A program made the translations under genes and the position numbers. Below are positions 6,973 through 59,481 of a stretch of 64,000 bases of DNA, piece after piece (position 1 is the first letter of the stretch; each line of letters starts with the position of its first letter). The notes under the pieces were generated by a model. The model saw only the letters and a program-made list of their open reading frames with translations, had not been told where the DNA came from and made no database searches. Origin of the DNA: a bacterium A37T11 (GTDB taxonomy: Bacteria; Bacteroidota; Bacteroidia; Sphingobacteriales; Sphingobacteriaceae); contig FOBR01000005.1 of assembly GCA_900109895.1 (NCBI GenBank), positions 62,001 to 126,000 of the forward strand. Reading direction: 5' to 3'.

Positions 6973-6977
6973 AATTG

Positions 6978-7036: not shown

Positions 7037-7044
7037 TATCTTTG
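7037..7044 (+). promoter_or_regulatory. -7 promoter element of ubiE (TATCTTTG)
   Basis: TATCTTTG ends 5 bases before the ATG at 7050. It is preceded by two copies of AGCTTTCCGCTTTT (6999-7012 and 7020-7034), the second directly abutting the promoter region. The block CCGCTTTTTACTATCTTTG is almost the same as that before the DUF6089-type gene at 12368. Confidence 0.55.
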
Positions 7045-7049
7045 CCAGC

Positions 7050-8524: not shown

Positions 8525-8558
8525 ACTGACTTAAATCCGTAAATCATATTCGTAAATC

Positions 8559-9314: not shown

Positions 9315-9399
9315 GCAGCTGGCAGAAAGCTTTCCGCTTAAAACACATTTTCCCATCTTTTTAGCGTATATTTGCGCTATTTAATTAGTTTTGCTTGGT

Positions 9400-9407
9400 T
9401 ATCTTTG
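9400..9407 (+). promoter_or_regulatory. -7 promoter element before the YqeY-like gene (TATCTTTG)
   Basis: TATCTTTG lies 26 bases before the ATG at 9434. A second match, TATATTTG at 9367-9374, lies 33 bases further upstream, so two start sites are possible. Neither has a clear -33 TTG at the usual distance. Confidence 0.4.
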
Positions 9408-9433
9408 TAACAAGCGTATAATTTTATTGAATA

Positions 9434-9886
9434 ATGGCACTGCAACAACAAGTAGATCAAGATATTAAACAAGCGATGCTTGCCAAAGACCAAGCCCGGC
9501 TGCGAGGGCTGCGGGCAATTAAGGCAGCTTTGTTGCTGGCAAATACGGAAAAGGGGGCATCTGAGGGCCTTACGGAAGAAGCCGAAGTCAAAGTGCTGCA
9601 GAAACTGGCAAAGCAACGGAAAGAGTCCGGTGAAATTTACCAGCAGCAAAACAGGCCTGATCTTTATCAAATAGAAAAGGAAGAGCTGGATGTTATTGAA
9701 AGCTTTCTTCCTAAACAACTAAGCCCTGAAGAGGTGGAGATGGCTATAAAAGGGGTGATAGCGGAGACAGGCGCTTCAGGTATTAAAGAATTGGGAAAGG
9801 TGATTGGAGTAGCTAACAAAAGTTTGGCAGGGAAGGCAGATGGCCGCACTATTTCTGAGGTAGCCAAACGTTTGCTTACGTCCTAA
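9434..9886 (+). CDS. GatB/YqeY domain-containing protein
   Basis: A 150-residue stand-alone YqeY domain, the length usual for the family. Recognisable segments are QVDQDIKQAMLAKDQARLRGLRAIKAA at the N-terminus, EIYQQQNRPDLYQIEKEELD in the middle (helical, charged), FLPKQLSPEEVE and the Gly-rich GASGIKELGKVIGVANKSL. The same domain forms the tail of the GatB subunit of Glu-tRNA(Gln) amidotransferase, where it helps to bind tRNA; the role of the free form is unclear. It starts a long plus-strand series of genes. Confidence 0.93.
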   Translation: MALQQQVDQDIKQAMLAKDQARLRGLRAIKAALLLANTEKGASEGLTEEAEVKVLQKLAKQRKESGEIYQQQNRPDLYQIEKEELDVIESFLPKQLSPEEVEMAIKGVIAETGASGIKELGKVIGVANKSLAGKADGRTISEVAKRLLTS

Positions 9887-9935
9887 CCCACTCACCGAAC
9901 TAATAATTTCAAAAAGAATCGTTTAAAAACAATTT

Positions 9936-10700
9936 ATGGAGTTTGCCATTAAAGAAGAAAAAGGATTTAAATATATTGATGAGGGTGAAGGGGAAGTACT
10001 TTTGTTGCTGCATGGCTTGTTAGGTGAATTAAGTAATTGGGATGGGGTGATAAATGAATTTAAGTCGGAGTATCGGGTCATTGTTCCGGTCTTGCCCGTT
10101 TATGAAATGCCCATTTTGCTTACTGGTGTAAAATCTTTAACAAAACATGTGTCCAAATTTATAAAACATCTGAAGTTGGACAAATTCTTTCTGGTTGGCA
10201 ATTCACTTGGAGGCCATATTGCACTGATGTATGCCATCAATAAAAGTCATCAGGAAAAAATAAAGGCCATGGTACTGGCAGGTAGTTCAGGGCTGTATGA
10301 GAATTCATTTGGGGGTTCTTTTCCCCGGAGGGAAAGCTATGATTATATCAAAGAAAAGACAGAATTTACATTTTATAAGCCAGAAACTGCTACAAAAGCG
10401 CTGGTAGACGAGGTTTTTGCTACACTCAATAACCGGGAACGGGTTATCCGGGTGATTGCGATAGCTAAATCGTGCATACGCCATAACATGGCAAGTGAAT
10501 TAATAAAGATAAAGATTCCCGTTGGGCTGATTTGGGGTAGAAATGACCGTGTGACCCCGCCTGAAGTGGCAGAAGATTTTCATGAGCGGCTGCCAAATTC
10601 AGAATTGCATTGGGTGGACGAATGTGGACATGCGCCTATGATGGAACAGCCGGAAATATTTAATGGGCTGTTCAGGCAGTTTTTAGATAAGTTCAAGTAA
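9936..10700 (+). CDS. Alpha/beta hydrolase
   Basis: A 254-residue cytosolic alpha/beta hydrolase. The oxyanion-hole segment is LLLLHGLLGELSNW, the nucleophile elbow is VGNSLGGHIAL (Ser near residue 89), the acid is in WGRNDRVTPPEVA and the catalytic His in DECGHAPMMEQPE near the C-terminus. The triad is therefore complete. The overall pattern is of the MhpC/esterase group, but the substrate is not evident. It is followed within 40 bases by the CBS protein and NAD kinase genes. Confidence 0.9.
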   Translation: MEFAIKEEKGFKYIDEGEGEVLLLLHGLLGELSNWDGVINEFKSEYRVIVPVLPVYEMPILLTGVKSLTKHVSKFIKHLKLDKFFLVGNSLGGHIALMYAINKSHQEKIKAMVLAGSSGLYENSFGGSFPRRESYDYIKEKTEFTFYKPETATKALVDEVFATLNNRERVIRVIAIAKSCIRHNMASELIKIKIPVGLIWGRNDRVTPPEVAEDFHERLPNSELHWVDECGHAPMMEQPEIFNGLFRQFLDKFK

Positions 10701-10739
10701 CGTTAGGAAGATGGTTGTCGTCTTTATAAAAAATAGCTT

Positions 10740-11399
10740 ATGACAACTGGTGAAATTATATCTGATACAAGTTATGCAGCAAATTCATTGGATCTGGTAG
10801 CCGTGCTATCAGACCGGATGTCTGAGCATAAATTGACGCAGCTACCTATAGTTGATGCGTTGAATTACGTTGGTTTGGTATCCGAAGATGATTTGATAGG
10901 CATTGATAATTCGGTAGTCCTGAACGAAGCGGGCATATTATTAAGGCCGATATTTATTCATGATGACCAACACGTATATGATGCATTGCGGTTGTTTAAT
11001 ATGCACCACCTCGAGATACTCCCAGTCCTTGATAACCAGAATCGGTATTTAGGCGTTATTAAAATAGCTGATCTTATGAATGCCTTGGCGGTAGTTACAG
11101 CGGTAGAGGTGGCTGGAGGTATAATTGTGTTGGAGATAGGTAATCGCGATAACGCGCTTTCACAAATTGCAAAAATAGTAGAATCGGCCAATGCCCAAGT
11201 GTTAAGCAGTTATGTGAGGGCCTTTCCAGATTCAACAAAACTGGAAGTGACGCTTAAAGTAAACCGTTTAGAAATATCTGACATTGTGGCGGCCTTTGTA
11301 CGTTATGACTATGTAATTATTAATACCTATAATGATATTAGGGAATACGATAGCACCCGCGAACGCTACGACCATCTAATGCATTTTTTAAACATATGA
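10740..11399 (+). CDS. CBS-domain protein with an ACT-like C-terminal domain
   Basis: A 219-residue protein with a tandem CBS pair at about residues 1-125 (seen in HKLTQLPIVDALNYVGLVSE and MHHLEILPVLDNQNRYLGVI). The C-terminal 85 residues, starting GGIIVLEIGNRDNALSQIAK, look like an ACT-type ferredoxin fold (beta-alpha-beta with a Gly-rich first turn). CBS pairs usually bind adenine nucleotides, so it may act as an energy or nucleotide sensor. Its stop overlaps the NAD kinase start by 4 bases (ATGA), so the two proteins are produced together and may be linked functionally. Confidence 0.88.
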   Translation: MTTGEIISDTSYAANSLDLVAVLSDRMSEHKLTQLPIVDALNYVGLVSEDDLIGIDNSVVLNEAGILLRPIFIHDDQHVYDALRLFNMHHLEILPVLDNQNRYLGVIKIADLMNALAVVTAVEVAGGIIVLEIGNRDNALSQIAKIVESANAQVLSSYVRAFPDSTKLEVTLKVNRLEISDIVAAFVRYDYVIINTYNDIREYDSTRERYDHLMHFLNI

Positions 11400-12295
11400 T
11401 AGCTGATAGTCTTAAAATAGCTGTTTATGGGCAGGAATTTCAGCTAATTTACGTACAGTATCTACAAGTGCTTTTTGACAGGCTAAAAGTTGCTGATACG
11501 GAGATTTGGGTTTATAAACCATTTTACGAATTTTTCCGTAGCTATCTGAAGGGCGAATTTAACGTTAAGACCTATGTTGGTAAAACCGACCTTCCTACCG
11601 ATACTGCTTTTATGTTAAGCCTTGGTGGTGATGGTACAATGCTGGCAGCGGTAGCCATCATTGCTGACTCGGGTATACCGGTAACGGGAATAAACTTGGG
11701 CAGGCTTGGGTTTTTGGCTAGCATTAATAAGGATGATATTGTGCCGGCAATCGATAGTTTGCTGTTAAAAGAATTTACCATACAGCAGCGATCCCTGATA
11801 CAGGTAAAAGCTGCTGATCAAATCTTGTTTGGGGGCCAGAATGTAGCGCTTAATGATATTACGATCCTAAAGCGTGATACTTCGGCCATGATCACGGTGC
11901 ATGCCTATCTGAATAAAGAATTATTGAACGCTTATTGGGCCGACGGATTGATCATAGCGACACCAACTGGCTCAACGGCCTATTCCTTGAGCTGTGGGGG
12001 GCCTATTATCATGCCGGGATCCGGTAATTTTGTAATCACGCCCATTTCTCCGCACAATCTTAATGTACGGCCTATGGTGATCTCTGACGGATTTGAGCTT
12101 GATATTATGATCGAAAGCCGCAGCGACAAATTTTTACTTTCCTGCGATTCCAGGACGGAATCGCTGGATACAGGTACGGAGATCCATATTACCCGCGCTC
12201 CATTTAATATAAACCTCATCCGGCTGAAACAGGAAAGTTATTTTAATACTTTGCGGCAAAAACTGCTTTGGGGTCTGGATACACGAAATTATTAA
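11396..12295 (+). CDS. nadK: NAD kinase
   Basis: A 299-residue polyphosphate/ATP-NAD kinase, which phosphorylates NAD to NADP. The diagnostic LSLGGDGTMLAA is near residue 77, followed by GINLGRLGFLASIN, then LNDITILKRDTSAMI (the NAD-contacting ND), DGLIIATPTGSTAYSLSCGG and the beta-rich C-terminal domain ending near SYFNTLRQKLLWG. All catalytic and nucleotide-binding segments are intact and the length is normal. It overlaps the CBS gene by 4 bases (ATGA). Confidence 0.97.
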   Translation: MIADSLKIAVYGQEFQLIYVQYLQVLFDRLKVADTEIWVYKPFYEFFRSYLKGEFNVKTYVGKTDLPTDTAFMLSLGGDGTMLAAVAIIADSGIPVTGINLGRLGFLASINKDDIVPAIDSLLLKEFTIQQRSLIQVKAADQILFGGQNVALNDITILKRDTSAMITVHAYLNKELLNAYWADGLIIATPTGSTAYSLSCGGPIIMPGSGNFVITPISPHNLNVRPMVISDGFELDIMIESRSDKFLLSCDSRTESLDTGTEIHITRAPFNINLIRLKQESYFNTLRQKLLWGLDTRNY

Positions 12296-45849: not shown

Positions 45850-45881
45850 CCTTATAACTATTTTTGGCCGAATTTAGCCGG

Positions 45882-46775
45882 ATGAACCGACATAACACAA
45901 TCAAAAGCTTAGGCATCATCGCCTGTTTAACCACCGCTTTTATCCAGCAGGACGTTCCCTTTAGTAACAGGCAGGCTCTTGGAAAAATACAGGATCCAGA
46001 GCTGAATGAATTGTCGGGCATCACCGCTTCCATGCACAATCCACAAAACTATTGGGTACATAATGACAGCGGTGATAAGGCCCGGATCTTTTTAATAAAT
46101 GACTCCGCACAACGCATAGCTACTTATTACCTGTCCGGAATTATTGCCCATGACTGGGAAGATATCGGCCGCAGGCAGCATCAAGGCAAAGCGCAGTTGC
46201 TGATTGGGGATATCGGGGATAATTTGGCAAAACGGTCCTGTATACAACTACATGTACTGGACGAACCACTGCTCAGGCCGCTTGCCAAAAAGCCATATTC
46301 AGATACCATCCCGGCAGCAACCATCAGCACATACGTGCTAAAATACGCAGACGGGCCGCGCGATGCCGAATCCTTTTTTTACGATGAGTCAGACCAGCAA
46401 TTATACATACTAAGCAAGCGTGATCTGCAAGCCGGCGTTTACAGTACCCCCTTACCCGGCGCTCCAAACCGTGATACACTGATCCTGCATAAAAGAACAA
46501 CCATTCCCCATACCTTTATTACCTCAGCAGATCTTTCATCCGATGGTACAGAACTACTCGTAAAAGACCTATTGCACGTTTATTATTGGAAACGCAAACC
46601 CGGAGAAACCATCGTCCACATGTTGGCCCGTCCGGCCATCAGCCTTCCTTATAAAGCCGAGCCGCAAGGCGAAGCCATTGCTTTTTTGACAGACGGATCC
46701 GCTTATGTCACGATCAGCGAGGAAGTATTAGGTTTGCCAGCGATTTTATATCGGTATAGAAGGATAGGCTTTTAA
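45882..46775 (+). CDS. Exported protein of unknown function, possibly beta-propeller
   Basis: A 297-residue protein; I start at the ATG at 45882 (MNRHNTIKSLGIIACLTTAFI, a signal peptide) rather than the TTG at 45864. The mature part has ELNELSGITASMHNPQNYWVHNDSGDKARIFLIN, IIAHDWEDIG, LLIGDIGDNLAKR and YADGPRDAESFFYDESDQQLYILSKRD. The repeats of strand-Asp motifs hint at a beta-propeller with one acidic face. Homologues with the 'HNDSGD' and 'DWEDI' motifs occur in Bacteroidota as uncharacterised proteins. No enzyme activity can be assigned. Confidence 0.7.
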   Translation: MNRHNTIKSLGIIACLTTAFIQQDVPFSNRQALGKIQDPELNELSGITASMHNPQNYWVHNDSGDKARIFLINDSAQRIATYYLSGIIAHDWEDIGRRQHQGKAQLLIGDIGDNLAKRSCIQLHVLDEPLLRPLAKKPYSDTIPAATISTYVLKYADGPRDAESFFYDESDQQLYILSKRDLQAGVYSTPLPGAPNRDTLILHKRTTIPHTFITSADLSSDGTELLVKDLLHVYYWKRKPGETIVHMLARPAISLPYKAEPQGEAIAFLTDGSAYVTISEEVLGLPAILYRYRRIGF

Positions 46776-46862
46776 AAAGAACCGGAATTTATTTATTGAA
46801 CATTTTTATTTTGGGTATTTTTTTTCTACTATTGTTCCGTATTTCAGTTATACAACCAAATT

Positions 46863-47444
46863 GTGAAAACTACCGGGCGATACCATCTTTTCAACGATGA
46901 AGCTTTGGTTCCTTTGTTATACAAAGGAGACCATGAAGCTTTTACGGAAATTTATAATCGTTATTTAAGCCTGCTGTACCGCCATGCCTATAAAGTATTG
47001 AATGATTCAGAAGCCTGTAACGATGTCGTGCAAGAAGTATTTGTCACTTTATGGGCCAAGCGTGAAAGCCTATCTCTCACCGGCACCCTCTCTGCCTATC
47101 TTTATACCATGGTGCGCAACAGGGTACTCGATCAAGTCAGCCATCAGCAGGTTGTTGAAAAATACATCGGATCCATACGCGATTTTGCCAACCAAGGCAG
47201 CTGGACCACCGATGAACGGATGCGGGAAAAAGAATTGTTGGCCATCATCGAAGCCGAAAAGGCAAAGCTGCCTCCACGCACCCGCGAGTTGTTTGAATTA
47301 AACCGGGAGCAGAACCTCAGTTACAAAGAAATCGGACAGCAATTAAATATTTCAGAAAAAACCGTCAAAAAGCAAGTGCATAATGCACTAAAGGCATTAC
47401 GCATTAAACTTAGCTCCTTCCTAACTATATTTCCCTTTTTGTAG
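46863..47444 (+). CDS. ECF sigma-70 factor (FecI-type) of the PUL
   Basis: A 193-residue ECF sigma with a GTG start at 46863. Region 2 is at residues 20-95 (LLYKGDHEAFTEIYNRYLSLLYRHAYKVL, then VVQEVFVTLWAKRESL) and region 4 at about 130-185 (LPPRTRELFELNREQNLSYKEIGQQLNISEKTVKKQV). In Bacteroidota such sigmas pair with a FecR and a SusC that has an STN domain; both are found downstream (49592 and 50923). Signalling from the outer membrane to this sigma should switch on the PUL. Unusually, an oxidoreductase gene separates it from fecR. Confidence 0.95.
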   Translation: MKTTGRYHLFNDEALVPLLYKGDHEAFTEIYNRYLSLLYRHAYKVLNDSEACNDVVQEVFVTLWAKRESLSLTGTLSAYLYTMVRNRVLDQVSHQQVVEKYIGSIRDFANQGSWTTDERMREKELLAIIEAEKAKLPPRTRELFELNREQNLSYKEIGQQLNISEKTVKKQVHNALKALRIKLSSFLTIFPFL

Positions 47445-47502
47445 GTGTTTTTTAAAACCGTCAGACTTTTTTCATTTACTAGTACTCCTTTAACATAGTT
47501 TC

Positions 47503-47511
47503 GCCGTCTAA
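47503..47511 (+). repeat. Spacer motif GCCGTCTAA before the FAD gene (first copy)
   Basis: GCCGTCTAA is followed 7 bases later by the ATG at 47519. The same nine bases precede the fecR ATG by 6 bases (49577-49585). Both spacers also carry an ACT-rich block (TACTAGTACTCC here, TACTACTCCC at the second). Confidence 0.6.
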
Positions 47512-47518
47512 AGGATAT

Positions 47519-49540
47519 ATGAACTTAAAGCAATTTTTTTTCTATTTCCAGGTGTGTGCATGGACGATTATGCTATCGGCCTATGCCCATCCCTCATCAG
47601 CGCAAAACAAATTTAATACCCTCGACGCAGACATCTGCATTTATGGCAGTACCTCTGCGGGGGTTATTGCAGCCTATACAGCTGCCAAAGCAGGGAAAAA
47701 AGTGATTCTGATCGATCCGGGCCACCGTTTAGGAGGAATGAGTAGTGGGGGATTAGGACAAACGGATATAGGCAATAAATATGTAGTAAAAGGGCTTGCG
47801 CTTGATTTTTACCGAAAAGTGGGCCAGCATTACGGAAAATTTGAACGTTGGATATTTGAACCGCATGTTGCTGATAGTATCTTTCAAGCCTATATGCGCG
47901 CATGCCCATCAACCATATTATTTGATCATGTACTCACGTCCGTTGATAAAAAAGATCGTCGAATTACCAGTATCCATCTCCGAAAAACAACAGACAATAA
48001 AAAGGCCACGTCGGTCCACGCAAAAGAATTTATCGATTGTTCTTACGAAGGTGACCTGATGGCCATGTCTGGTGTGTCTTATGCTGTAGGCCGCGAAAAT
48101 AATAGTCAATACCAGGAAACAATCAATGGGGTACAGCTAATGACCAAACATCAGTTTCCGGATGGTATAGATCCATATAATGTACCGGGGGATTCCTCCA
48201 GTGGCCTGGTGTGGGGAATTAGTAAAAACACCTTGTTGCCAAATGGTACAGGAGATAAAAAAGTGCAAGCCTATAATTTCAGGCTCACACTAACCAATGT
48301 ACCCGAAAACCGAATCCCGATTGAAAAGCCTGATAATTACGACCCCACGCATTATGAACTATTAAAACGGCTGAAGGAAAAGTCGCCATGGAAACAGTTG
48401 TCGGATGTGTTTGGGTGGAGTATAATGCCGAACGGGAAGACAGACATTAATAACAGTGGGGGGTTCTCAACCGATATGATCGGTATGAACTGGGACTATC
48501 CCAATGCTGGTTACGAGCAACGGCAGCAAATTATCAAAGCCCACGAAGACTATACAAAAGGCCTGCTGTACTTTTTAGGTCATGACCCTGCTGTGCCGGG
48601 CGCCATCCGGGAGGAAATGCTGCAGTGGGGTTACCCCAGAGATGAATACCAGGATAATCATCACTGGACCCCGCAATTGTATATCCGTGAAGCAAGAAGA
48701 ATGATCGGTGAGCTGGTCATGACCCAGCACCATTGCCAGGGAAGTGAAGTGGTCACGGACGATGTGGGCTACGCCGCCTATACCATGGACTCGCATAACT
48801 GCGACCGGCTGGTGGTCAATGGTATGGTCAAAAATGAAGGCGACGTCCAGGTTGGTGGTTTCCCCCCGTTTCCCATAGCTTACCGGGCCATTATCCCGCA
48901 ACGAACAGAAGTGGGCAACCTGCTGGTGCCCGTATGTTTATCCGCTACCCATATTGCCTATGGTTCTATACGGATGGAACCCGTCTTTATGGTGTTGGGA
49001 CAGTCAGCCGCAATAGCCGCATGCCTGGCTATTAAGCACAGAAAATCTGTACAGGACGTATCTCCAGATGCCATAAAAGCGCAACTTCGGCAAAATCCGA
49101 AAGGTGACGGGCGGACCGCCGATGTCTGGATAGATAGCCGCGACAGCACCCAGGTAAGTTATACAGGCACATGGAAAGAAGTAAAGCAAGGAGGTTATGG
49201 ATCAGCATTCCGCGTGAGTTCCGATGTTGCTTCCTTCAGTAGCGCCCGGTTCACTCCCAAAGGACTGGCTGCGGGCAAATACAGCATTTACAGTTATTAT
49301 CCCAAACTAAAAGCAGGTAGTTCAAAAATGGAATACGTGCTTTCAGACGGAAAAATACGAACACGGAAAGAGATAGACCTGCATCAGGTACACATTGAAG
49401 GGCAAACCTCCGGCGACTGGCTTTACATCGGAGATATGAATGTGGATGCCAATACCCAAAGTTTTGTGGAAATCACAAATTCCGGGGCTGATGGGGCGGT
49501 TGCTGCCAACGCCGTTTTATTTGTGCCCAAGATAAAATAA
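47519..49540 (+). CDS. FAD-dependent oxidoreductase with golvesin-like C-terminal domain (PUL)
   Basis: A 673-residue exported protein (signal peptide ending HPSSAQ). The N-terminal 480 residues form an FAD-binding fold: DICIYGSTSAGVIAAYTAAKAGKKVILI and the sequence RLGGMSSGGLGQTDIGN, with PF12831-type features downstream (IDCSYEGDLMAMSGVSYAVGREN, RAIIPQRTEVGNLLVPVCLSATHIAYGSIRMEP). The C-terminal ~130 residues, after IDSRDSTQVSYTGTWKEV, form a beta-sandwich of the golvesin C-terminal type, thought to bind or anchor to polymer. Such proteins are often mislabelled xanthan lyase. The substrate may be a sugar of the PUL polysaccharide. It lies within the sigma/fecR pair and shares spacer motifs on both sides. 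Confidence 0.85.
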   Translation: MNLKQFFFYFQVCAWTIMLSAYAHPSSAQNKFNTLDADICIYGSTSAGVIAAYTAAKAGKKVILIDPGHRLGGMSSGGLGQTDIGNKYVVKGLALDFYRKVGQHYGKFERWIFEPHVADSIFQAYMRACPSTILFDHVLTSVDKKDRRITSIHLRKTTDNKKATSVHAKEFIDCSYEGDLMAMSGVSYAVGRENNSQYQETINGVQLMTKHQFPDGIDPYNVPGDSSSGLVWGISKNTLLPNGTGDKKVQAYNFRLTLTNVPENRIPIEKPDNYDPTHYELLKRLKEKSPWKQLSDVFGWSIMPNGKTDINNSGGFSTDMIGMNWDYPNAGYEQRQQIIKAHEDYTKGLLYFLGHDPAVPGAIREEMLQWGYPRDEYQDNHHWTPQLYIREARRMIGELVMTQHHCQGSEVVTDDVGYAAYTMDSHNCDRLVVNGMVKNEGDVQVGGFPPFPIAYRAIIPQRTEVGNLLVPVCLSATHIAYGSIRMEPVFMVLGQSAAIAACLAIKHRKSVQDVSPDAIKAQLRQNPKGDGRTADVWIDSRDSTQVSYTGTWKEVKQGGYGSAFRVSSDVASFSSARFTPKGLAAGKYSIYSYYPKLKAGSSKMEYVLSDGKIRTRKEIDLHQVHIEGQTSGDWLYIGDMNVDANTQSFVEITNSGADGAVAANAVLFVPKIK

Positions 49541-49576
49541 AAAATTAATTTTTTACTACTCCCTTTTTGGGATATA

Positions 49577-49585
49577 GCCGTCTAA
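49577..49585 (+). repeat. Spacer motif GCCGTCTAA before fecR (second copy)
   Basis: GCCGTCTAA ends 6 bases before the fecR ATG at 49592, as in the spacer before the FAD gene. TACTACTCCC precedes it. Confidence 0.6.
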
Positions 49586-49591
49586 CAATAT

Positions 49592-50722
49592 ATGAACAAC
49601 GAGGAGATACGGATTTTACTAAGTAAATATCAAGCTGGGACGCTTTCGGATGAAGAACGGGCGATCCTTGAAAGCTGGTATTTAAGTACAGTAAAAAACG
49701 CATCGGTCACTATCAGCGATCAAGATCTTCAGTTCAATTTAAAGGCAGTCGAAAAAGTAATTATCTCCGGAACCAGGCCGGGAAGGCCCAGTTCGAGAAG
49801 TCTCTGGGTGTCTGCTGCTTTGATTCTGTTGATAGGGACAGGTCTTTTATTTGTCGTATCAAAGAAGGTAAAGCCGGAATCGGTCAAGGAAGAAATAGTC
49901 TATGTGGCCCCAGGCCGCGACCAAGCAACCCTCAAGCTATCAAATGGCAAAAAGATCGATCTGAATGGAGAGAAAAAAGGGATTGTAGTTGCCAATAATG
50001 AAATAGCTTATAATGATGGGAGTAAAGTCGAAGAAACTAAGTCTACCCATTTTGAATTATCTACCCCAAAAGGCGGGCAATACCGAGTAGTGCTGCCTGA
50101 TGGGACCAAAGTATGGTTAAATGCGGCTTCATCGTTGCGATATCCGGCTACATTTGATCCGGACAAACGTGAAGTTGAACTGGTCTTTGGTGAAGCCTAC
50201 TTTGAAGTTGCAAGCAGAGCACAATCTGCTAATTTGCCGCCATTCATCGTAAAAAGCAATGGTTTAGAGACCATTGTATTGGGCACAGCCTTTAATATTT
50301 CTGCGTATAAAGAGGATGCGCAATCGGCCATTACACTCGTAAATGGAAAAGTAAAGGTGTCCGCAAATACAGGAAAGAAAAACGAAGTGATACTTAAACC
50401 TGGCCAGGAAACTGTAGAGACTAATAGGGGGCTTGTGACGCGAGATGCAGATATTCCGTCGGTGATAGGCTGGAAAGAAGGGCTATTTAAGTTTAACGAA
50501 ACAGAATTACAGGCGGTTATGAACCAGCTGAGCCGCTGGTATAATTTAGAAGTGGAATATAGAGGTACAATTAAGGAAACCTACATATATGGGGTCATCA
50601 AACGCAACAAGCCATTAGATGAAGTATTAAACATCCTTAAAGAAGGGGGTGTTAACGTTAAAATTGAATCTAGCAGTAACGGTACAGCAAAAAAAGTAAT
50701 CGTATATCCGGCTATTTTATGA
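49592..50722 (+). CDS. FecR-family anti-sigma factor of the PUL
   Basis: A 376-residue inner-membrane protein. The cytoplasmic N-terminal 65 residues (NNEEIRILLSKYQAGTLSDEERAILESWY) bind the sigma; one helix follows (VSAALILLIGTGLLFVVS); then the FecR domain (RVVLPDGTKVWLNAASSLRYP, VELVFGEAYFEV, LGTAFNISAY, TLVNGKVKV) and a DUF4974-type C-terminal part (LQAVMNQLSRWYNLEVEY). It relays the signal from the STN domain of SusC to the ECF sigma. Confidence 0.95.
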   Translation: MNNEEIRILLSKYQAGTLSDEERAILESWYLSTVKNASVTISDQDLQFNLKAVEKVIISGTRPGRPSSRSLWVSAALILLIGTGLLFVVSKKVKPESVKEEIVYVAPGRDQATLKLSNGKKIDLNGEKKGIVVANNEIAYNDGSKVEETKSTHFELSTPKGGQYRVVLPDGTKVWLNAASSLRYPATFDPDKREVELVFGEAYFEVASRAQSANLPPFIVKSNGLETIVLGTAFNISAYKEDAQSAITLVNGKVKVSANTGKKNEVILKPGQETVETNRGLVTRDADIPSVIGWKEGLFKFNETELQAVMNQLSRWYNLEVEYRGTIKETYIYGVIKRNKPLDEVLNILKEGGVNVKIESSSNGTAKKVIVYPAIL

Positions 50723-50922
50723 TAATAAACCAATTATTTACATAAACAACTATTATGAGCATGATATTACAAACCTGAAGGATCCGGAAATAAGGGACTG
50801 ACATAAAAAAACCGGATAGTGCGGTAACACTACCCGGCAAATTGCTTGGGCCAGACCATACACATTGCAGTAAAGCAATACGAGAATCAACATTTTAGAT
50901 GTAACCCAAACGGTACAAACAT
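50723..50922 (+). promoter_or_regulatory. fecR-susC leader region with a hairpin
   Basis: The 200 bases between fecR and susC carry no gene. At 50812-50837 is a hairpin: CCGG-A-TAGTG, loop CGGTAA, CACTA-C-CCGG, preceded by seven A. It may be a leader RNA structure for susC; on the minus strand it would look like a terminator with a T run. No clear TAnnTTTG is seen. Confidence 0.5.
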
Positions 50923-53900
50923 ATGAATTTTAACGCATGTGTTCAAGGCATCGTTATACGAACGCCTTTAACCATTAAATTGCTACTAATTATGAAGTTG
51001 GCAGTTTTATTAACTGTATTCACCATTTTACAGGCTGCTGCCGCCAGTTATGCCCAGCGTATAACGTTGAAAGTAACGAATATGCCACTGTCAAAAGCAA
51101 TGGACCAGGTGTATGCGCAGAGTGGCTATCAGGTTTTTTTGAATGGTAAGGATGTGGCACAGGCAAAAGTAACTGCAAATTTGTTGAATGCCAGCATCGA
51201 AGAAGCGATGGACAAGCTGTTGGATGGCCTTTCGCTGAGTTGGAAACTTAAAGACAATACCATCATTATAAAGCAAAAAGCCGCGCCTATGAAATTGCCT
51301 GCAATGACTAAGCCCGTAGAAGAAGACTGGCAACAGAAGGAGGTTCGGGGAAAAGTAACTGACCAGGCGGGGCAGCCAGTGGCTGGTGTGACGATACGGA
51401 TGAAATCAGGGCTGAATGGTGCCACCACAGACAGCTTGGGAAATTATCGCTTACCAATAGATCATGCAAATGATGTATTGACCTTTTCAATGGTGGGTTT
51501 TAAAGTTCAGGAAATACCGGTAAATAACCGCCAACGGATTGATGTAACGCTTGAAGAAGAAAAATCAGATCTGGACGAAGTGGTGGTAGTGGCCTTTGGT
51601 ACGCAAAAAAAGAAAGAAGTAGTCGGTTCTATTACCACGATAACACCCTCAGAACTTAAAATACCATCCAGCAATTTGACCACCGCTTTGGCAGGCAGGT
51701 TAGCGGGGGTAATTGCCTATCAGCGAAGTGGCGAACCAGGGGCTGACAATGCCGATTTTTTTATTCGTGGTGTAACCACTTTTGGATACAAGAAAGATCC
51801 GCTCATCCTGATCGATGGCATCGAACTAACCACTACAGACCTATCTCGCATGCAGGTGGATGACATTGCCAGTTTTTCTATCTTAAAAGACGCCACCTCT
51901 ACAGCACTTTATGGCGCCAGAGGGGCCAACGGGGTCATCCTGATCACCACCAAAGAAGGGGTAGAAGGCAAAGCCAAAGTATCCCTAAGACTAGAAAATT
52001 CCATTTCATCTGCCACCAACAATGTAGAATTTACAGACCCAATAACGTATATGCGGTTGGGTAATGAAGCCGTACTGACACGGAATCCGCTGGGCCAATT
52101 TCCATACCCGGAAGAAAAGATTGATAACACCATCGCCGGGACTAATCCCTATGTATATCCTGCTACCGATTGGCGTAAAACGCTATTTAAAGACTATACC
52201 ATGAACCAGCGTGGCAATTTCAACGTAACAGGAGGAGGGAAAGTAGCACAATATTACCTCGCAGCCACGATGAACAGAGACAACGGTGTGCTCAAAGTAG
52301 ACAAGCGAAATAATTTTAATAATAACATCCGGCTCAATACCTACTCCATGCGTTCAAATGTAACCATCAATTTAACCAATACCACGCAGGTAGCCGTGAG
52401 GCTGTCGGGTACATTTGATGGCTATAACGGACCATTGGATGGGGGTACGGGCATGTATAAAAAAGTAGCCTACTCAAATCCAGTTCTTTTTCCGGCCTAT
52501 TACCCAGTAGATGATGCCAACAAGTTTGTCCAGCACATCATGTTTGGCAACTATGGTGATGGTGGGTACATCAACCCCTATGCTGATATGGTCAAAGGAT
52601 ACAAAGAATACACACGTTCAAACATACTGGCGCAATTTGAAGTAAAACAAAATCTGGATTTTGTGACAAAGGGGCTTTCGCTACAGGCATTGTTCAATAC
52701 CACGCGTACCAATTATTTTGACGTAAGGCGTTTTTATAATCCGTTTTGGTATACACTGGGTAACTATGATAAATACACCAATCAATTTACAACCACACTC
52801 TTAAATCCCAATGGTGGTACAGAATATCTGAGTTATTCAGAAGGATTGAAGCAGATCACGGCTACCACCTATATACAGGGAACATTAAATTACAACCGTA
52901 CATTCTCGGAAAAACACACAGTAGGGGCCTTGTTGGTATACCTCATGAACGACCAGTTAAAAGCCAATGCCGGGTCGTTACAACTTTCATTGCCGCGTCG
53001 AAACCTGGGAATCTCCGGACGTTTGTCTTATGGATATGACAACCGCTATTTCTTTGAATACGATTTTGGTTACAACGGTACAGAACGTTTTTCAAAAGCG
53101 CATCGGTTTGGTTATTTTCCGTCGGTAGGCGCCGCATGGACCATATCCAATGAACCTTTCTTTAAACCATGGGCCAATACCGTGACCAACCTGAAAATTC
53201 GGGGCACCTATGGCAAGGTGGGTAACGATGCCATTGGTAATGAAGATGAACGGTTTCTCTATCTGGCGGATGTAAATATGAACGACGCAACCCGAACTTC
53301 AGTTTTCGGCACTGACTTAAACTATGGCCGTTCAGGCATTTTTATCAATCGTTATGGCAATGATCAGATCACGTGGGAAGAAGCATTGAAAACGAACATA
53401 GGTTTTGAATTGAGCCTATGGAACAAGCTAAATATTCTTTTAGATCTTTATAAAGAAAAACGGAGCAATATTCTGATGAATAGGGCGAGCATTCCAGCTT
53501 CCATGGGTTTGTTGAACAATGCCGATATACAGGCCAATTTAGGAAAGGCAAGTGCGAAAGGATTTGACTTGTCTGTAGACTACAACCAAACCATTAACAA
53601 CGATTGGTGGGTGCAGGCCCGGGCGAATTTAACCTATGCCACGAACAAATTTGAAGAATATGATGAACCAGACTATTCCGATACCTATTTATCACATGTA
53701 GGACAACCGATAAATCAGAAATGGGGTTATATCGCAGAACGGCTGTTTGCAGATGATGCAGACGTAAAGAATTCGCCGCCACAGAGCTTTGGCGAGTACG
53801 GTGCCGGCGACATCAAATATCATGACGTGAACGGTGATGGGCAGATCACCACACGAGACAGGGTGCCGATCGGCTACCCAACATCACCTGAGATTGTGCA

Positions 53901-54363
53901 CGGATTTGGATTCTCGTTTGGCTATAAAAGCTTGGATGTTTCGGCATTTTTTCAGGGTTTGTCCCGTGAATCTTTCTGGGTGGACGCCGATTCCACAGCT
54001 CCATTTGTGAATGATCGAGCGCTCTTAAAGGTATATGCTGACGATCATTGGTCTGAACAAAACCGTGATCTATATGCAATATGGCCTCGATTAAGCGCCC
54101 GTCCAATTGCCAACAATACCCTTATTAGCACTTGGTTTATGCGCAATGGCGCCTTTCTTCGGTTAAAGAATGTCGAGGTGGGCTATACGCTCCCTGCTAA
54201 ATTAACCAAGCGTATCGCTATAGAAAAAGCGCGACTTTACGTTAACGGGATGAATTTATTCTTATGGAGCCGATTTAAACTATGGGATGTGGAGATGGGT
54301 GGTAATGGTTTAGGTTACCCACTGCAGCGGGTGATCAATATGGGTGTTCAACTATCTTTTTGA
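50923..54363 (+). CDS. SusC/RagA TonB-dependent outer-membrane transporter with STN domain (PUL)
   Basis: An 1146-residue transporter. The signal peptide ends SYAQ; an STN (secretin/TonB short N-terminal) domain at about 45-115 (LKVTNMPLSKAMDQVYAQSGYQ) contacts FecR; a carboxypeptidase-regulatory-like domain (EVRGKVTDQAGQPVAGVTIR) at about 140-210; the plug with VVVAFGTQKKKEVVGSI and SILKDATSTALYGARGANGVI (TonB-dependent receptor features); then the 22-stranded barrel ending GVQLSF. It brings oligosaccharides into the periplasm with SusD. The frame is open for MNFNACVQGIVIR upstream of MKLAVLLT; both starts keep the signal peptide. Confidence 0.97.
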   Translation: MNFNACVQGIVIRTPLTIKLLLIMKLAVLLTVFTILQAAAASYAQRITLKVTNMPLSKAMDQVYAQSGYQVFLNGKDVAQAKVTANLLNASIEEAMDKLLDGLSLSWKLKDNTIIIKQKAAPMKLPAMTKPVEEDWQQKEVRGKVTDQAGQPVAGVTIRMKSGLNGATTDSLGNYRLPIDHANDVLTFSMVGFKVQEIPVNNRQRIDVTLEEEKSDLDEVVVVAFGTQKKKEVVGSITTITPSELKIPSSNLTTALAGRLAGVIAYQRSGEPGADNADFFIRGVTTFGYKKDPLILIDGIELTTTDLSRMQVDDIASFSILKDATSTALYGARGANGVILITTKEGVEGKAKVSLRLENSISSATNNVEFTDPITYMRLGNEAVLTRNPLGQFPYPEEKIDNTIAGTNPYVYPATDWRKTLFKDYTMNQRGNFNVTGGGKVAQYYLAATMNRDNGVLKVDKRNNFNNNIRLNTYSMRSNVTINLTNTTQVAVRLSGTFDGYNGPLDGGTGMYKKVAYSNPVLFPAYYPVDDANKFVQHIMFGNYGDGGYINPYADMVKGYKEYTRSNILAQFEVKQNLDFVTKGLSLQALFNTTRTNYFDVRRFYNPFWYTLGNYDKYTNQFTTTLLNPNGGTEYLSYSEGLKQITATTYIQGTLNYNRTFSEKHTVGALLVYLMNDQLKANAGSLQLSLPRRNLGISGRLSYGYDNRYFFEYDFGYNGTERFSKAHRFGYFPSVGAAWTISNEPFFKPWANTVTNLKIRGTYGKVGNDAIGNEDERFLYLADVNMNDATRTSVFGTDLNYGRSGIFINRYGNDQITWEEALKTNIGFELSLWNKLNILLDLYKEKRSNILMNRASIPASMGLLNNADIQANLGKASAKGFDLSVDYNQTINNDWWVQARANLTYATNKFEEYDEPDYSDTYLSHVGQPINQKWGYIAERLFADDADVKNSPPQSFGEYGAGDIKYHDVNGDGQITTRDRVPIGYPTSPEIVHGFGFSFGYKSLDVSAFFQGLSRESFWVDADSTAPFVNDRALLKVYADDHWSEQNRDLYAIWPRLSARPIANNTLISTWFMRNGAFLRLKNVEVGYTLPAKLTKRIAIEKARLYVNGMNLFLWSRFKLWDVEMGGNGLGYPLQRVINMGVQLSF

Positions 54364-54385
54364 CGAAAAATATAAACAGACAGAA

Positions 54386-56275
54386 ATGAAAAGATTAAGA
54401 AATGGGTTAATGGTGCTGTTGATGAGCGGGAGCTTATTTTCCTGCCATTACCTGGATATCGTGCCAGACAATATTGCTACGATGGAATATGTGTTTCGTA
54501 TGCGAAGCACCACAGAACAATACTTGTTTACCCTATATAGTTATCTGCCTAAATTTACCGATACCTATGTATATCCCACTATACTTGGGGGCGACGAAAT
54601 ATGGGCTAATGATTATAATGTCAATTTGAGTACACCGGCATGGCAAATCGCTAAGGGTTTCCAAAACATTACCGATCCCTACTCCAATTACTGGGGCGGG
54701 GGCAACGGTGGGCGTGGGCTATATGTGGCCATCCGCGATTGCAACACATTTCTGGAGCACATTCATGAAGTGCCAGACATGGACGATTATGAAAAAAATC
54801 GCTGGGCCGCCGAAGCCAAATTTTTAAAGGCGTACTATCATTTTTTTCTGATGCGGATGTATGGCCCCATTGTATTGGTCAAACAAAACCTGCCCATTAC
54901 CACTTCACCAGAAGGAGTTAAATCATTGCAGGCTCCGATTGATTCATGTGTGAACTACATAACCGGATTGCTTGATTCGGCTACAACCGATCTCCCAGAG
55001 CGTATTGTGGCCGAAGCGACAGAACAAGGCCGGATAACCAAAGCCATAGCAAAGGCCGTGAAGGCACAGGTGCTGGCACTTTCTGCCAGCCCATTATTCA
55101 ATGGAAATCCGGATTATGCCACGATCACTTCCAACGGGATAAAATTATTTGGCGAGGGGTATGATGCCAGCAAGTGGGAGCGCGCGGCCATTGCGTGTAA
55201 AGAAGCCATAGACGAGGCAGTAATTGCAGGACATCAAATATACTACTATAATGGAGCTTTTCTGCCTTTTCCAGGATCCCCGGCTACCCTTACGGAAATG
55301 AGTGTGCGAAGCGCGGTTTGTGAAAAGTGGAATTCGGAGGTCATATGGACCAGTACCAATAACCGGGCTAGCACGCTCCAGTCGGAAAATTTGCCGCGTT
55401 TGTATACTGGGGACAAGCAAACAGGTGCACTATCTTCATTTGGTGTACCCCTAAAAATAGCCGAGCAGTTCTATACCAGTAATGGTGTCCCGATCAATGA
55501 AGATAAAACTTGGGATTATAACGCACGGTATGGAATACGTACGGCTACTTCTGCCGATGCACTCAGGATAAGTCCCAATTATAAAACGGCAAATCTAAAT
55601 TTTGACCGCGAGACACGGTTTTATTCCGACCTCGGATTTGATGGAGGGCGGTGGTTTGGCCAAGGGCGCTTTAATGACGCAGACAATGTGTATGTTCAGG
55701 CTAAGTTAGGTCAGATTGCAAACAACCATGCCTGGGCCTATTCCATGACGGGCTATTGGGCCAAAAAACTCGTAAATCCACAATCAGTATCATCCGCAAC
55801 TGAAATCACCATTCAATCATATCCCTGGCCCATTATTCGGCTTTCGGATATATATTTGCTCTATAGTGAGGCGCTTAATGAATGGCAAGGACCAAGCGAA
55901 GAAGCCTATAAATGGATCGATCTGGTGCGCGCTCGCGCCGGACTAAAAGGTGTTACAGAGTCGTGGGCCAATTATTCCATCAACCCCAATGCGCCACAAA
56001 GCAAAGCAGGATTTCGAAGTATTATTCACCGCGAACGGTTAATCGAACTTGCTTTTGAAGGAAGCCGGTTTTGGGATCTTCGCCGCTGGAAAGAAGCCGA
56101 ACAAGTGCTGAATCAGCCGATAACCGGATGGACAGTCACCGGAAAAACGGAAGACGCCTATTATCAGTTGAAATATATCTACAATCAGAAATTCGAAAAA
56201 AGAGACTATTTATGGCCACAGAAGGAAGAAGACCTGATTGAGAATAACCTGTTGCTGCAAAACCCAGGGTGGTAA
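54386..56275 (+). CDS. SusD/RagB surface glycan-binding lipoprotein (PUL)
   Basis: A 629-residue lipoprotein: MKRLRNGLMVLLMSGSLFSCHYLDIVPD carries the lipobox at residue 20 (LFSC). The alpha-helical SusD fold shows AAEAKFLKAYYHFFLMRMYGPIVLV, AKAVKAQVLALSASPLFNG, IIRLSDIYLLYSEALNEW, and RSIIHRERLIELAFEGSRFWDLRRW, all typical. It forms the lid over SusC and binds the polysaccharide. The start at 54386 is chosen over 54344, which lies within susC. Confidence 0.96.
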   Translation: MKRLRNGLMVLLMSGSLFSCHYLDIVPDNIATMEYVFRMRSTTEQYLFTLYSYLPKFTDTYVYPTILGGDEIWANDYNVNLSTPAWQIAKGFQNITDPYSNYWGGGNGGRGLYVAIRDCNTFLEHIHEVPDMDDYEKNRWAAEAKFLKAYYHFFLMRMYGPIVLVKQNLPITTSPEGVKSLQAPIDSCVNYITGLLDSATTDLPERIVAEATEQGRITKAIAKAVKAQVLALSASPLFNGNPDYATITSNGIKLFGEGYDASKWERAAIACKEAIDEAVIAGHQIYYYNGAFLPFPGSPATLTEMSVRSAVCEKWNSEVIWTSTNNRASTLQSENLPRLYTGDKQTGALSSFGVPLKIAEQFYTSNGVPINEDKTWDYNARYGIRTATSADALRISPNYKTANLNFDRETRFYSDLGFDGGRWFGQGRFNDADNVYVQAKLGQIANNHAWAYSMTGYWAKKLVNPQSVSSATEITIQSYPWPIIRLSDIYLLYSEALNEWQGPSEEAYKWIDLVRARAGLKGVTESWANYSINPNAPQSKAGFRSIIHRERLIELAFEGSRFWDLRRWKEAEQVLNQPITGWTVTGKTEDAYYQLKYIYNQKFEKRDYLWPQKEEDLIENNLLLQNPGW

Positions 56276-56307
56276 TACATATGCAAAAATTATTGATTGA
56301 AAAGAAT

Positions 56308-57504
56308 ATGAAATCACGTCTTATATATGGGGCCCAGCTAGCACTACTGTTAGTGGGCGCCTGTTCGGAGGAAAAGCTTAAACCGCAAACAAACGGCGAC
56401 AAGGCTCCCGCAGCAGTTACCAATTTACGGGTTGAAAATGGAGCGGGTAAGGCAAAGATCACCTATGACGTACCAAATGATCCTACACTATTCTATGTAA
56501 AAGCCGAATATGAAAACAGGCCTGGGCATAAAATGGAAGCCATAGCTACCTACTATAATAACAGCATTGTTCTGGAAGGGTTTAACAATACGGATGAACG
56601 GGAAGTAAAGTTATATTCCATAAGCAGGGCTGAGGTCCGGTCTGAGCCAATAACTGTAAAAGTAAAGCCATTAACAGCACCCATTCAATCTACCCTGGCT
56701 TCCCTGGAACCGATAGCCGATTTTGGAGGTATCTCTGTAAAGTACGAAAATGCCGACACCGCCAATATTGCCATCGGGGTATTAACACGGGGACAGAGAG
56801 AGGAGCCCATTCAGTCAGACATGTATTATACAGCGGAGGCTGTGGGTGAATTTGCATCACGGGGTTTTAATGATACGGAACAGTGGTTTGGCTTGTATGT
56901 ACGCGATCAGTGGCAAAATTATTCAGATACGGTATGGCACCGTCTAAAGCCGTTATTTGAACAACAAATGGATAAGAAGAAGTTTGTGGGCTTGAAGCTA
57001 CCTACCGACGCTTCCACATTTGGATCAACGACGCTAGCAAACCTTTGGAATGATGTTGTCAGTGGGGGATCTAGCTCGACCAAAACATGGTATCGCTCTG
57101 TCAACGGGGCAGGAATTCCTCACTGGATCACTTTTGATATGGGTGTTACTGCTAAGCTAAGCCGGTTTGTGGAAGTTCCCCGTGGCGCATTTGATGAACA
57201 AAATTTGCTTTACGCTGCGGGTGACCCTCAATTATTTGAAGTCTGGGGAACTACCCAATATAATCCGGATGGAAGTTTTAATGGCTGGACTAAATTGATG
57301 GACTGTGAAGTGGTAAAATCTTCAGGGCTGCCAATAACCCTCAATTCCAACGACGATATTTTACGCGCTCAGGAAGGACATCAATTTAAATTTCCCATTG
57401 ATGCACCCCCAGTAAGGTACATTCGCTTGAAATTCTTGCAGACATTCGGTAACTCTGATTATAGCTGGATGGCAGAAATCACCTTTTTTGGCCAATTACA
57501 ATAA
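56308..57504 (+). CDS. Surface lipoprotein with DUF4959, DUF5126 and DUF5000-like domains (PUL)
   Basis: A 398-residue lipoprotein with the lipobox LLVGAC and CSEEKLKP afterwards. DUF4959-like N-terminal part (APAAVTNLRVENGAGKAKITYDVPND) is followed by a fibronectin-like middle domain and a C-terminal DUF5000-like, discoidin-type carbohydrate-binding part (ITFDMGVTAKLSRFVEVP, FEVWGTTQYNPDGSF, PVRYIRLKFLQTFG). It resembles the SGBP-type proteins that often follow SusD and probably assists in catching the glycan. Confidence 0.85.
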   Translation: MKSRLIYGAQLALLLVGACSEEKLKPQTNGDKAPAAVTNLRVENGAGKAKITYDVPNDPTLFYVKAEYENRPGHKMEAIATYYNNSIVLEGFNNTDEREVKLYSISRAEVRSEPITVKVKPLTAPIQSTLASLEPIADFGGISVKYENADTANIAIGVLTRGQREEPIQSDMYYTAEAVGEFASRGFNDTEQWFGLYVRDQWQNYSDTVWHRLKPLFEQQMDKKKFVGLKLPTDASTFGSTTLANLWNDVVSGGSSSTKTWYRSVNGAGIPHWITFDMGVTAKLSRFVEVPRGAFDEQNLLYAAGDPQLFEVWGTTQYNPDGSFNGWTKLMDCEVVKSSGLPITLNSNDDILRAQEGHQFKFPIDAPPVRYIRLKFLQTFGNSDYSWMAEITFFGQLQ

Positions 57505-57506
57505 AT

Positions 57507-58196
57507 ATGAAAAACATGAAGATGCAAATGAATTATATGTGCTGGTGGCTACTCTTAGGAGTATTTGTGGCCGCCTGTGATAAGGCCGATGAAAATTACA
57601 AAAAGTACATTCCCAATGGGGAAACCGTCTATCCGGCCAAAGTCGATTCCTTAAAAGCAAATCCTGGGAAGAACCGCATCCAACTATACTGGCTCCTCAA
57701 ATCCGACTCCCGTATTACCAAGACCAAAGTATTTTGGAACAATAAACAGGATTCGCTTGAACTAAGCGTCACGTCTAAAAACCCGATTGATACATTCCGT
57801 ACATTGCTTACTAACTTGGCTGAAGGTCCTTATATATTCCAAGTATATACCTATAATCCCGAAAATGCACGGTCTGTTAAATCGGAAGTGAATGGCGAAG
57901 TTTACGGTGAGGCCTATGAATCATTCCTGATCAACCGAACACTTCGCAGCATCACGGCAAATGCAGGCACTGTCACTTTAAAATGGGATCAGGCAGACCC
58001 GCGTTCGCCCGGTGTCCTCCTTAACTTTAAAGATCAAAATGGCTTGGCACAAGAAGTGCTCGTGCCATCGACAGAAGGAACTACGATTTTAAATACCGTT
58101 CCACAAACAGGAAGTATGAGCTTCAGAACGCTTATTCTTCCAGTTTCCAATGCGATAGATACACTAAAGGCCCCGGAATTGAATGTGGATTTTTAG
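57507..58196 (+). CDS. DUF4998-like surface lipoprotein (PUL)
   Basis: A 229-residue lipoprotein with the lipobox FVAAC near residue 24. The mature part has NYKKYIPNGETVYPAKVDSLKANPGKNRIQLYWLL, the DUF4998 opening, and two fibronectin-III-like domains rich in Trp/Tyr and beta strands. It lies 2 bases after the DUF4959-type gene. Pairs of DUF4959 and DUF4998 genes are frequent in PULs; the second is thought to serve glycan binding at the surface. Confidence 0.83.
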   Translation: MKNMKMQMNYMCWWLLLGVFVAACDKADENYKKYIPNGETVYPAKVDSLKANPGKNRIQLYWLLKSDSRITKTKVFWNNKQDSLELSVTSKNPIDTFRTLLTNLAEGPYIFQVYTYNPENARSVKSEVNGEVYGEAYESFLINRTLRSITANAGTVTLKWDQADPRSPGVLLNFKDQNGLAQEVLVPSTEGTTILNTVPQTGSMSFRTLILPVSNAIDTLKAPELNVDF

Positions 58197-58206
58197 AATT
58201 GGTAAA

Positions 58207-58246
58207 ATCCAATATTAGGTTTAAAAAAGTTTACCTAATTTTGGAT
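58207..58246 (+). promoter_or_regulatory. Long inverted repeat before the alginate-lyase-family gene
   Basis: ATCCAATATTAGGT (58207-58220) and ACCTAATTTTGGAT (58233-58246) pair over 14 bases with one mismatch and a 12-base loop. The palindrome ends 26 bases before the lyase ATG. It could be an operator or an RNA stem that lowers readthrough from the upstream lipoprotein gene. Confidence 0.5.
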
Positions 58247-58272
58247 AACCATATAAACAAATTTGGCTGTAT

Positions 58273-59481
58273 ATGATGAGAAATTCGATGATCAGCTTTT
58301 GTGTAATTTTAAGTTGTTTGGTGAGTGCTTCTTTCGCAAAAGCCACAGAACCACCAAACACCTTTTTAACACGTGGCGACCTCTTGCTAAGCAACAAAAA
58401 AAAGATTGCATCCGGAGATGCTGTGTTGAGTGCAGCTTTAACTGCATTGCAGCAAGAGGCAGATAAGGCTTTAAATAATGGTCCGTATACGGTAACTTCT
58501 AAAAGTATACTTCCCGCCAGCGGCGACAAACACGATTATATGAGCGTAGGGCCCTACTGGTGGCCGGATAAAAGCAAACCCGATGGTTTGCCCTATATAC
58601 GCAAAGATGGAAAGGTTAATCCGGAGCGGTTTGATATTCCGGATGCGGATCAGCTGAAGAAGCTTACCAACGATGTCCAAGTGTTGGCAGTCACGTATTA
58701 TTATACCGGCAAAGCGGTATATGCCATTAAAGCCTCCCGTCTCCTTAAAACCTGGTTTTTGAATGCCGATACCCGGATGAATCCCAATTTAAACTATGGC
58801 CAGGCGATACCGGGTATTACCGAGGGGCGTGGCATCGGGCTGATCGACTCCAGGGCTTTTGTAGAAATGCTGGATGTCATCCCGCTTTTGTCAGGAATCC
58901 CTGAGTGGAAGGACACCGATACGAAAGCACTACAGCAATGGTTTAAAGCATTTGCAGACTGGATGCAGGAAAGTCCTTTGGGTATCGACGAATCGGATGA
59001 ACACAATAATCACGGTACGTTTTATGATTGCCAATTGATCGGATATGGCCTCTTTACAGGGGATACGGCCCTGGCAACGCAAGTATTAAAGAATAATAGT
59101 TACGCCCGCATCGAAAGCCAACTTGACACTGACGGAAAGCAACCTTTAGAACTGGCAAGAACACGTCCGTGGAATTATACAACGATGAACCTGCGTGGCT
59201 TTTTTACGATTGCCCGCTTGGCAGAGAACGTGCATACCGATCTTTGGCATTATACTACCCCAACTGGGAAAAGCATCCGCAAAGCACTAGTTTGGATGCT
59301 GCCTTACGGAACCGGGCAAAAAGATTTTCCCTATAAAAGCATTGAACCGGTAAACACCGATGGTTTTCAGCAATTGATCCGGACAGCTTCACAGGTTTAT
59401 CCGGATATCAGTTCCAAACAGTGGGTAGTGGATGATAAAAAGCTTCCACCTTTCTTCCTGCTAACAGAGCGGATGCTGTGA
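58273..59481 (+). CDS. Alginate-lyase-family protein (PF05426-like) (PUL)
   Basis: A 402-residue exported enzyme (signal peptide ending SASFAKA). It has the family features DYMSVGPYWWPDKSKPDGLPYI and NLNYGQAIPGITEGRGIGLIDSRAF, and the catalytic-region motif EHNNHGTFYDCQ, an (alpha/alpha) barrel fold of the PF05426 class. These lyases (PL5, PL38 and relatives) cleave uronic-acid chains such as alginate or glucuronan by beta-elimination; which chain cannot be told here. It is the last gene of the PUL and the only polysaccharide-cutting enzyme in it. The start could be either of two adjacent ATGs (58273 or 58276). Confidence 0.88.
   Translation: MMRNSMISFCVILSCLVSASFAKATEPPNTFLTRGDLLLSNKKKIASGDAVLSAALTALQQEADKALNNGPYTVTSKSILPASGDKHDYMSVGPYWWPDKSKPDGLPYIRKDGKVNPERFDIPDADQLKKLTNDVQVLAVTYYYTGKAVYAIKASRLLKTWFLNADTRMNPNLNYGQAIPGITEGRGIGLIDSRAFVEMLDVIPLLSGIPEWKDTDTKALQQWFKAFADWMQESPLGIDESDEHNNHGTFYDCQLIGYGLFTGDTALATQVLKNNSYARIESQLDTDGKQPLELARTRPWNYTTMNLRGFFTIARLAENVHTDLWHYTTPTGKSIRKALVWMLPYGTGQKDFPYKSIEPVNTDGFQQLIRTASQVYPDISSKQWVVDDKKLPPFFLLTERML

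Follow-up and report, generated by a model that had tools for sequence, protein, structure and literature searches.

The window, a stretch of 64,000 nucleotides from the genome of the bacterium A37T11, contains genes for an ECF sigma factor, an FAD-dependent oxidoreductase, a FecR anti-sigma factor, a SusC-like transporter and a SusD-like protein, arranged in this order on one strand and assigned by their Pfam and NCBIfam domains. The sigma gene (46863..47444, + strand) begins with GTG, and its product carries the Pfam domains Sigma70_r2 and r4_2 and matches NCBIfam TIGR02985 (Sig70_bacteroi1) with 150 bits against a cut-off of 126.4. It is followed by the FAD gene (47519..49540, +), which encodes an oxidoreductase with a C-terminal golvesin-type domain (PF12831, E 1.2e-108; PF25275, E 3.1e-13) and, as read by eye, may specify a signal peptide at its N-terminus. 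Next come fecR (49592..50722, +; PF04773 and PF16344) and, downstream of it, the gene of a susC-like TonB-dependent transporter (50923..54363, +; TIGR04056, 984.7 bits). Spacers of 74 nt and 51 nt separate sigma from the FAD gene and the FAD gene from fecR, respectively.

With sigma, FecR, SusC and SusD domains in order on the + strand, the locus resembles the Sigma/FecR-regulated SusCD loci (PULs) of Bacteroidota that use a TIGR02985 sigma factor. It differs from them in that fecR does not adjoin sigma, the FAD gene lying between the two, and in having two candidate sigma-type promoter sites instead of one. The FecI/FecR/FecA system of Escherichia coli likewise combines a sigma factor, a membrane anti-sigma factor and a TonB-dependent transporter; there, fecIR is described as having its own mRNA and FecI as acting at fecA (PMC9249621). 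In the window, by contrast, the candidate sites stand before the FAD gene and fecR, and none was found before susC.

The genome holds 80 FecR matches above the cut-off. In 72 of these loci, fecR lies directly behind a sigma gene without an intervening gene, 70 of them recognized by an automatic test (less than 400 nt) and two by eye (L065, where the chosen start overlaps sigma, and L053, whose sigma gene was missed by the search). An intervening gene separates sigma from fecR in three loci, namely the window, L078 and L086. Upstream of the remaining five fecR genes (L031, L034, L058, L068 and L083), no sigma gene was seen within 1.0-2.2 kb by a search that is not fully sensitive.

Paired elements on either side of the FAD gene

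The original prediction drew attention to a 9-mer shared by the sequences before the FAD gene and before fecR, accompanied by an ACT-rich block. We confirm that these shared elements are real and find them more orderly than first reported. The 9-mer, GCCGTCTAA, occurs at 47503-47511 and 49577-49585, its sole two copies on both strands of the window, and the ACT block lies at 47477-47488 on the FAD side and at 49554-49563 on the fecR side. Two further features had gone unremarked. Both spacers contain ACTCC-N16-CGTCTAA (47484-47511 and 49558-49585), the distance from ACTCC to CGTCTAA being 16 nt in either copy, and ATATATGAAC crosses the start codons of both the FAD gene and fecR.

By itself, the 9-mer is expected 0.22 times in the window, and at least two copies were found in 4 of 100 shuffles. 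The two-part pattern ACTCC-N16-CGTCTWA has two matches in the 5.09-Mb genome, which are exactly the two spacers, compared to one match for a reversed control. Had the 9-mer been common before unrelated start codons, insertion by spacer duplication would have lost its footing; in fact GCCGTCTAA-N3..12-ATG has four matches in the genome versus six for the control, and the other two fall within long open reading frames, so that the 9-mer is no common feature ahead of start codons.

We compared the spacers by local alignment (+2/-2, gap -4/-1). The FAD spacer and the fecR spacer score 45 against each other, a value reached by none of 2000 mononucleotide shuffles; when the remaining 79 FecR upstream regions are paired with one another, 18 of 3081 comparisons reach it. 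No likeness beyond that of shuffles was detected in the 201 bases before the spacers or in the first 240 coding bases after them. Outside the two blocks, the copies are alike in the leader and in A/T stretches and unlike in the 11-nt gap between the blocks, where they agree by eye at 3 of 11 positions, the level expected by chance.

A related single spacer in Parapedobacter tibetensis

The best ortholog pair found for sigma (66%) and fecR (46%) belongs to Parapedobacter tibetensis (locus L148). When its sigma and fecR genes are compared with the frames from all 80 FecR loci, those of the window are the best hits, and in the other direction the P. tibetensis genes top the lists too. In P. tibetensis, fecR stands directly after sigma, across a single spacer and with no gene in between, the arrangement expected of a relative if a gene entered the window's pair and the spacer was duplicated. 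This is the one close ortholog spacer found. The susC genes of the two loci (50923-54363 in the window and 8028-11493 in L148) are 29% alike overall and 42% over the first 300 residues. With so low an overall value, orthology is limited to the regulator pair, which seems to be combined with different transporters in the two organisms.

The P. tibetensis spacer reads CTAGTACTCCCTTT...TCGTCTTAAGGATATATG and scores 55 against the FAD spacer and 50 against the fecR spacer. The other 79 spacers of the A37T11 genome score at most 40 against any of these three spacers, with best values of 37 against the FAD side and 33 against the fecR side. The 8-nt leader before the FAD start codon, AAGGATAT (47511..47518, +), has the same letters as the leader of P. 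tibetensis fecR; full identity is seen in 5 of 6555 leader pairs, 3 of these among Chitinophaga loci. Because it is the FAD spacer and its leader that match the P. tibetensis spacer best, the FAD gene has apparently adopted the start region that once belonged to fecR. The alignments support the view that both copies are homologous to an ancestral-like spacer.

That the FAD gene was inserted into a sigma-fecR pair, as originally proposed, is well supported by these comparisons, since 72 of the 80 FecR loci adjoin a sigma gene, the ortholog pair lacks the insert, and FAD genes elsewhere are not so placed (0 of 54 loci, described below). The accompanying claim, that the second copy arose by duplication of the spacer rather than by renewed selection for the same promoter, is probable but not proven, because the copies share mainly their functional part and the 11-nt gap agrees only as by chance. 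On balance, we think it likely that each copy is a bipartite promoter of the ECF sigma factor encoded just upstream, present once in the relative and twice around the FAD gene through spacer duplication.

A different history would leave the promoters in place and dispense with the duplication: both sites would serve one sigma factor, the second having been rebuilt by selection before fecR (or before the FAD gene). The restriction of the likeness mainly to functional parts, the poor agreement in the gap and the want of common flanking sequence are what such an origin would leave behind. It accounts less readily for the fact that either copy is closer to the P. tibetensis spacer than any of the 79 others is, also outside the blocks. 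The FAD-side leader agrees with that of P. tibetensis, and the fecR-side copy shares with that species a stretch rich in A and T; as such runs are common in these spacers, this last likeness carries little weight. We regard independent origin of the second site as less likely than duplication.

A two-block motif and its reading as a promoter

A single motif fitted to all 79 other fecR upstream regions was largely made up of a run of T and a block of purines (LLR 162, versus 51-58 for two shuffled sets). We discarded it, since it blends the specificities of many sigma factors, and trained the motif instead on relatives of the window's sigma factor. From 39 sigma loci, 27 were used. Those dropped were two in which fecR was not found (L203 and L209), two duplicates (L201 and L215), one without an ATG (L212), one with a distant fecR (L216) and six that by eye were near-identical to retained rows (L151, L156, L157, L158, L208 and L218). 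The fecR starts were chosen by rule as the first ATG. With the window left out, these 27 sigma-fecR spacers yielded CTAccCCCt-N11-A.CtGtCTt at a log-likelihood of 163.0 (60 starts), whereas four mono-shuffled sets, each fitted from 20 starts, reached 60.6-63.7. In 26 of the 27 best sites the gap is 11, a regularity due in part to the gap weights being learned in the fit itself.

When the window is scanned with this motif, the site before fecR ranks first (score 18.35), with the -35-like block CTACTCCCT at 49556..49564 (+) and the -10-like block AGCCGTCTA at 49576..49584 (+). The site before the FAD gene ranks 13th and scores 9.2-9.7 as a whole; its -35-like block GTACTCCTT lies at 47482..47490 (+), where ACTCC occupies 47484-47488, and its -10-like block CGCCGTCTA at 47502..47510 (+). 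Sigma, susC, susD and the three genes that follow lack a motif site in front of them; upstream of the susC-like gene the best score is 3.8, short of the 5.65 that marks the 95% level of shuffled spacers.

Refitting on 26 spacers without P. tibetensis gave a log-likelihood of 133.9. Under this refit, none of 2000 dinucleotide shuffles of its spacer reached the fecR site, and 26 of 2000 reached the FAD site, a marginal result; with a flat gap prior, the best placement in the FAD spacer is another one. We also scored 27 further loci picked by FecR similarity, a set without the window (L118), L119 and L123 but with near-duplicates retained (L141 and L146 give the same site). Here 14 loci score at least 6, versus 19% of shuffles, which were drawn from all 30 rows, and 13 score below 6; the learned spacing is kept by 8 of the 14 under a flat prior over 13 gaps. 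Across 70 sigma-fecR spacers in this genome, the motif score tends to be higher the closer the sigma factor is to that of the window (Spearman 0.43, p 1.7e-4), as expected if each sigma factor reads its own spacer. This tracking is modest: only 15 of the 70 lie above the 95% shuffle mark, and L084 and L014, whose sigma factors are among the most similar, score about 1 or less.

As an alternative to insertion, the original prediction had allowed for a conserved element of translation or RNA processing, here one acting on the two mRNAs. Both copies do lie 6-7 nt before an ATG and share the context ATATATG. Across the 27 related spacers, however, the distance from the blocks to the ATG varies from 7 to 81 nt while the spacing of the blocks stays constant, and for this reason we favor a promoter over a ribosome-binding or start-context element. 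In addition, three spacers showed no better folding than their shuffled versions (z 0.78, 0.08 and 2.01), and the pattern does not recur before other starts of the genome. A role in translation or RNA processing is therefore very improbable.

The promoter reading draws on two blocks at constant spacing and on a -10 of the CGT type, CGTC being present in both copies (47505-47508 and 49579-49582). In Flavobacterium psychrophilum, a -10 box with CGT has been read as a mark of ECF recognition; motif SM6 of that species has CGT in its -10 region and is tied to an ECF sigma/anti-sigma pair, as in the window (PMC9723704). SM6 is described before type IX secretion and other genes, unlike the window's sites, and the comparison with it covers the -10 region (PMC9723704). 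In Bacteroides thetaiotaomicron, by contrast, a 2025 study proposes a different -10, TGTT, for two ECF sigma factors (PMC12596196). For PUL24 of the same species, the sigma-dependent 5' end has been proposed to map to where the anti-sigma gene ends (PMC11501099), which speaks against a general rule. A search of the window's two spacers for a sigma-70 consensus found nothing.

The putative promoter would comprise a -35-like TACTCC(C) and a -10-like CGTCTAA, separated by 16 nt counted from ACTCC. In relatives, a single promoter of this kind between sigma and fecR would allow the sigma factor to drive the gene of its own anti-sigma factor and the genes downstream. In the lineage of the window, an FAD gene of a type often found behind susD would have landed directly behind the spacer and its start context, and fecR would bear the second copy of the promoter. 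Once freed, the sigma factor would start two transcripts, one at the FAD gene reading towards fecR and one at fecR itself. As no + strand terminator-like site was found between the FAD gene and fecR, the latter would be fed from both starts.

We infer that these starts lie within a few bases of the ATGs, which would make the mRNAs almost leaderless. Such starts are unusual in the phylum and count against the promoter reading: about 3.7% of 5' UTRs are reported to be under 10 nt in B. thetaiotaomicron (PMC7366714), and a leaderless share of 5.5% is given for F. psychrophilum (PMC9723704). Yet a similar closeness is found in P. tibetensis and in Chitinophaga. In four Chitinophaga loci (L154, L155, L156 and L158), the fecR ATG follows the -10-like block after only a few bases (7 nt in both L154 and L155), which suggests almost leaderless anti-sigma mRNAs in another family.

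A 2020 study of B. thetaiotaomicron stated that none of the alternative ECF sigma factors of this species had a known promoter motif at the time (PMC7366714). In our literature search, which covered titles and the openings of abstracts, no description of the spacer motif or of a gene between sigma and fecR was found. Dozens of sigma/FecR pairs are possible in a Bacteroidota genome, as the 80 FecR matches here illustrate, and CTAccCCC with tGTCTTa at constant spacing is a concrete candidate motif for one sigma clade. If both sites are promoters, the doubled site would be a natural pair of differing predicted strength for one sigma factor.

Genes between sigma and fecR, and the settings of FAD relatives

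A relative of the FAD gene is present in 107 of 399 genomes of the family (E 1e-150). We examined 54 such loci outside the window (29, and 25 new), with flanks of about 1-1.5 kb on each side; some are neighbors in one cluster, and two are paralogs in this genome. Within these flanks, none of the 54 lies between sigma and fecR. A susD-like frame is found upstream of the FAD gene in 27 of the 54 (9 of 29 and 18 of 25); the others often adjoin another FAD gene. The motif score before the first ATG is at most 4.8 in 8 of 9 FAD relatives scored, against the 95% shuffle mark of 5.65. The ninth, L095, could be scored only at an internal ATG (5.7), and later second ATGs give 7.2 in L096 and 5.7 in L097. 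About 1.2 kb downstream of L115, one of the paralogs in this genome, lies a sigma gene.

The other two intervening genes of the genome both encode AAA-type ATPases, of family PF09820 in L078 (from G000:C8:39242-42100) and PF13173 in L086 (from G000:C24:233904-236800). By eye, they look as if they sit behind a TAnnTTTG sequence resembling a housekeeping box. At neither locus does the stretch after sigma resemble the stretch before fecR: the alignments score 13 and 19, values reached by 740 and 661 of 1000 shuffles. An intervening gene alone therefore does not bring a second copy of the spacer.

These ATPase genes, together with the direct repeats flanking the FAD gene, could also call to mind a mobile element that brought the FAD gene in, its ends or target-site duplication being left as the repeats. 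This is highly unlikely. A Pfam scan of the nine genes from 45864 to 59481 identified no transposase, and among the repeats of at least 14 nt listed for 46776-51000 none, direct or inverted, pairs the two spacers. Moreover, the repeat equals a putative promoter found in a relative that lacks the insert, no repeat of this kind is seen at the two ATPase loci, and the core pattern occurs nowhere else in the genome. A chance match, conceivable for the 9-mer alone given its recurrence in window shuffles, is extremely unlikely for a two-part pattern of equal spacing that occurs exactly twice in the genome, both times before the starts of neighboring genes, and has a related spacer in P. tibetensis.

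If the duplicated promoter is real, it would show how a gene can settle between a sigma factor and its inhibitor and leave their feedback intact, and the window would be a modest case of a gene joining a sugar-uptake regulon. A broader proposal, which we offer as speculative and think improbable, is that the sigma-fecR promoter is a landing site for gene recruitment, where an inserted gene would inherit the promoter and the near-leaderless start, and where the locus would be kept only if the promoter is doubled.

Two other loci from relatives touch on these arrangements. In L252 (5816-9528; G131:C6:61815-65527), a susCD pair is followed by two tandem FAD genes, and the orthologous sigma-fecR pair lies on this contig as well, about 27 kb away. 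In L199, from an uncultured Mucilaginibacter, about 5.4 kb (about 6590-11955) separates sigma from the next fecR found, and the intervening stretch opens, by eye, with an ABC-transporter permease-like gene. The fecR gene of L199, whose pairing with that sigma is uncertain, has a CTACGCCC...CCGACTA site.
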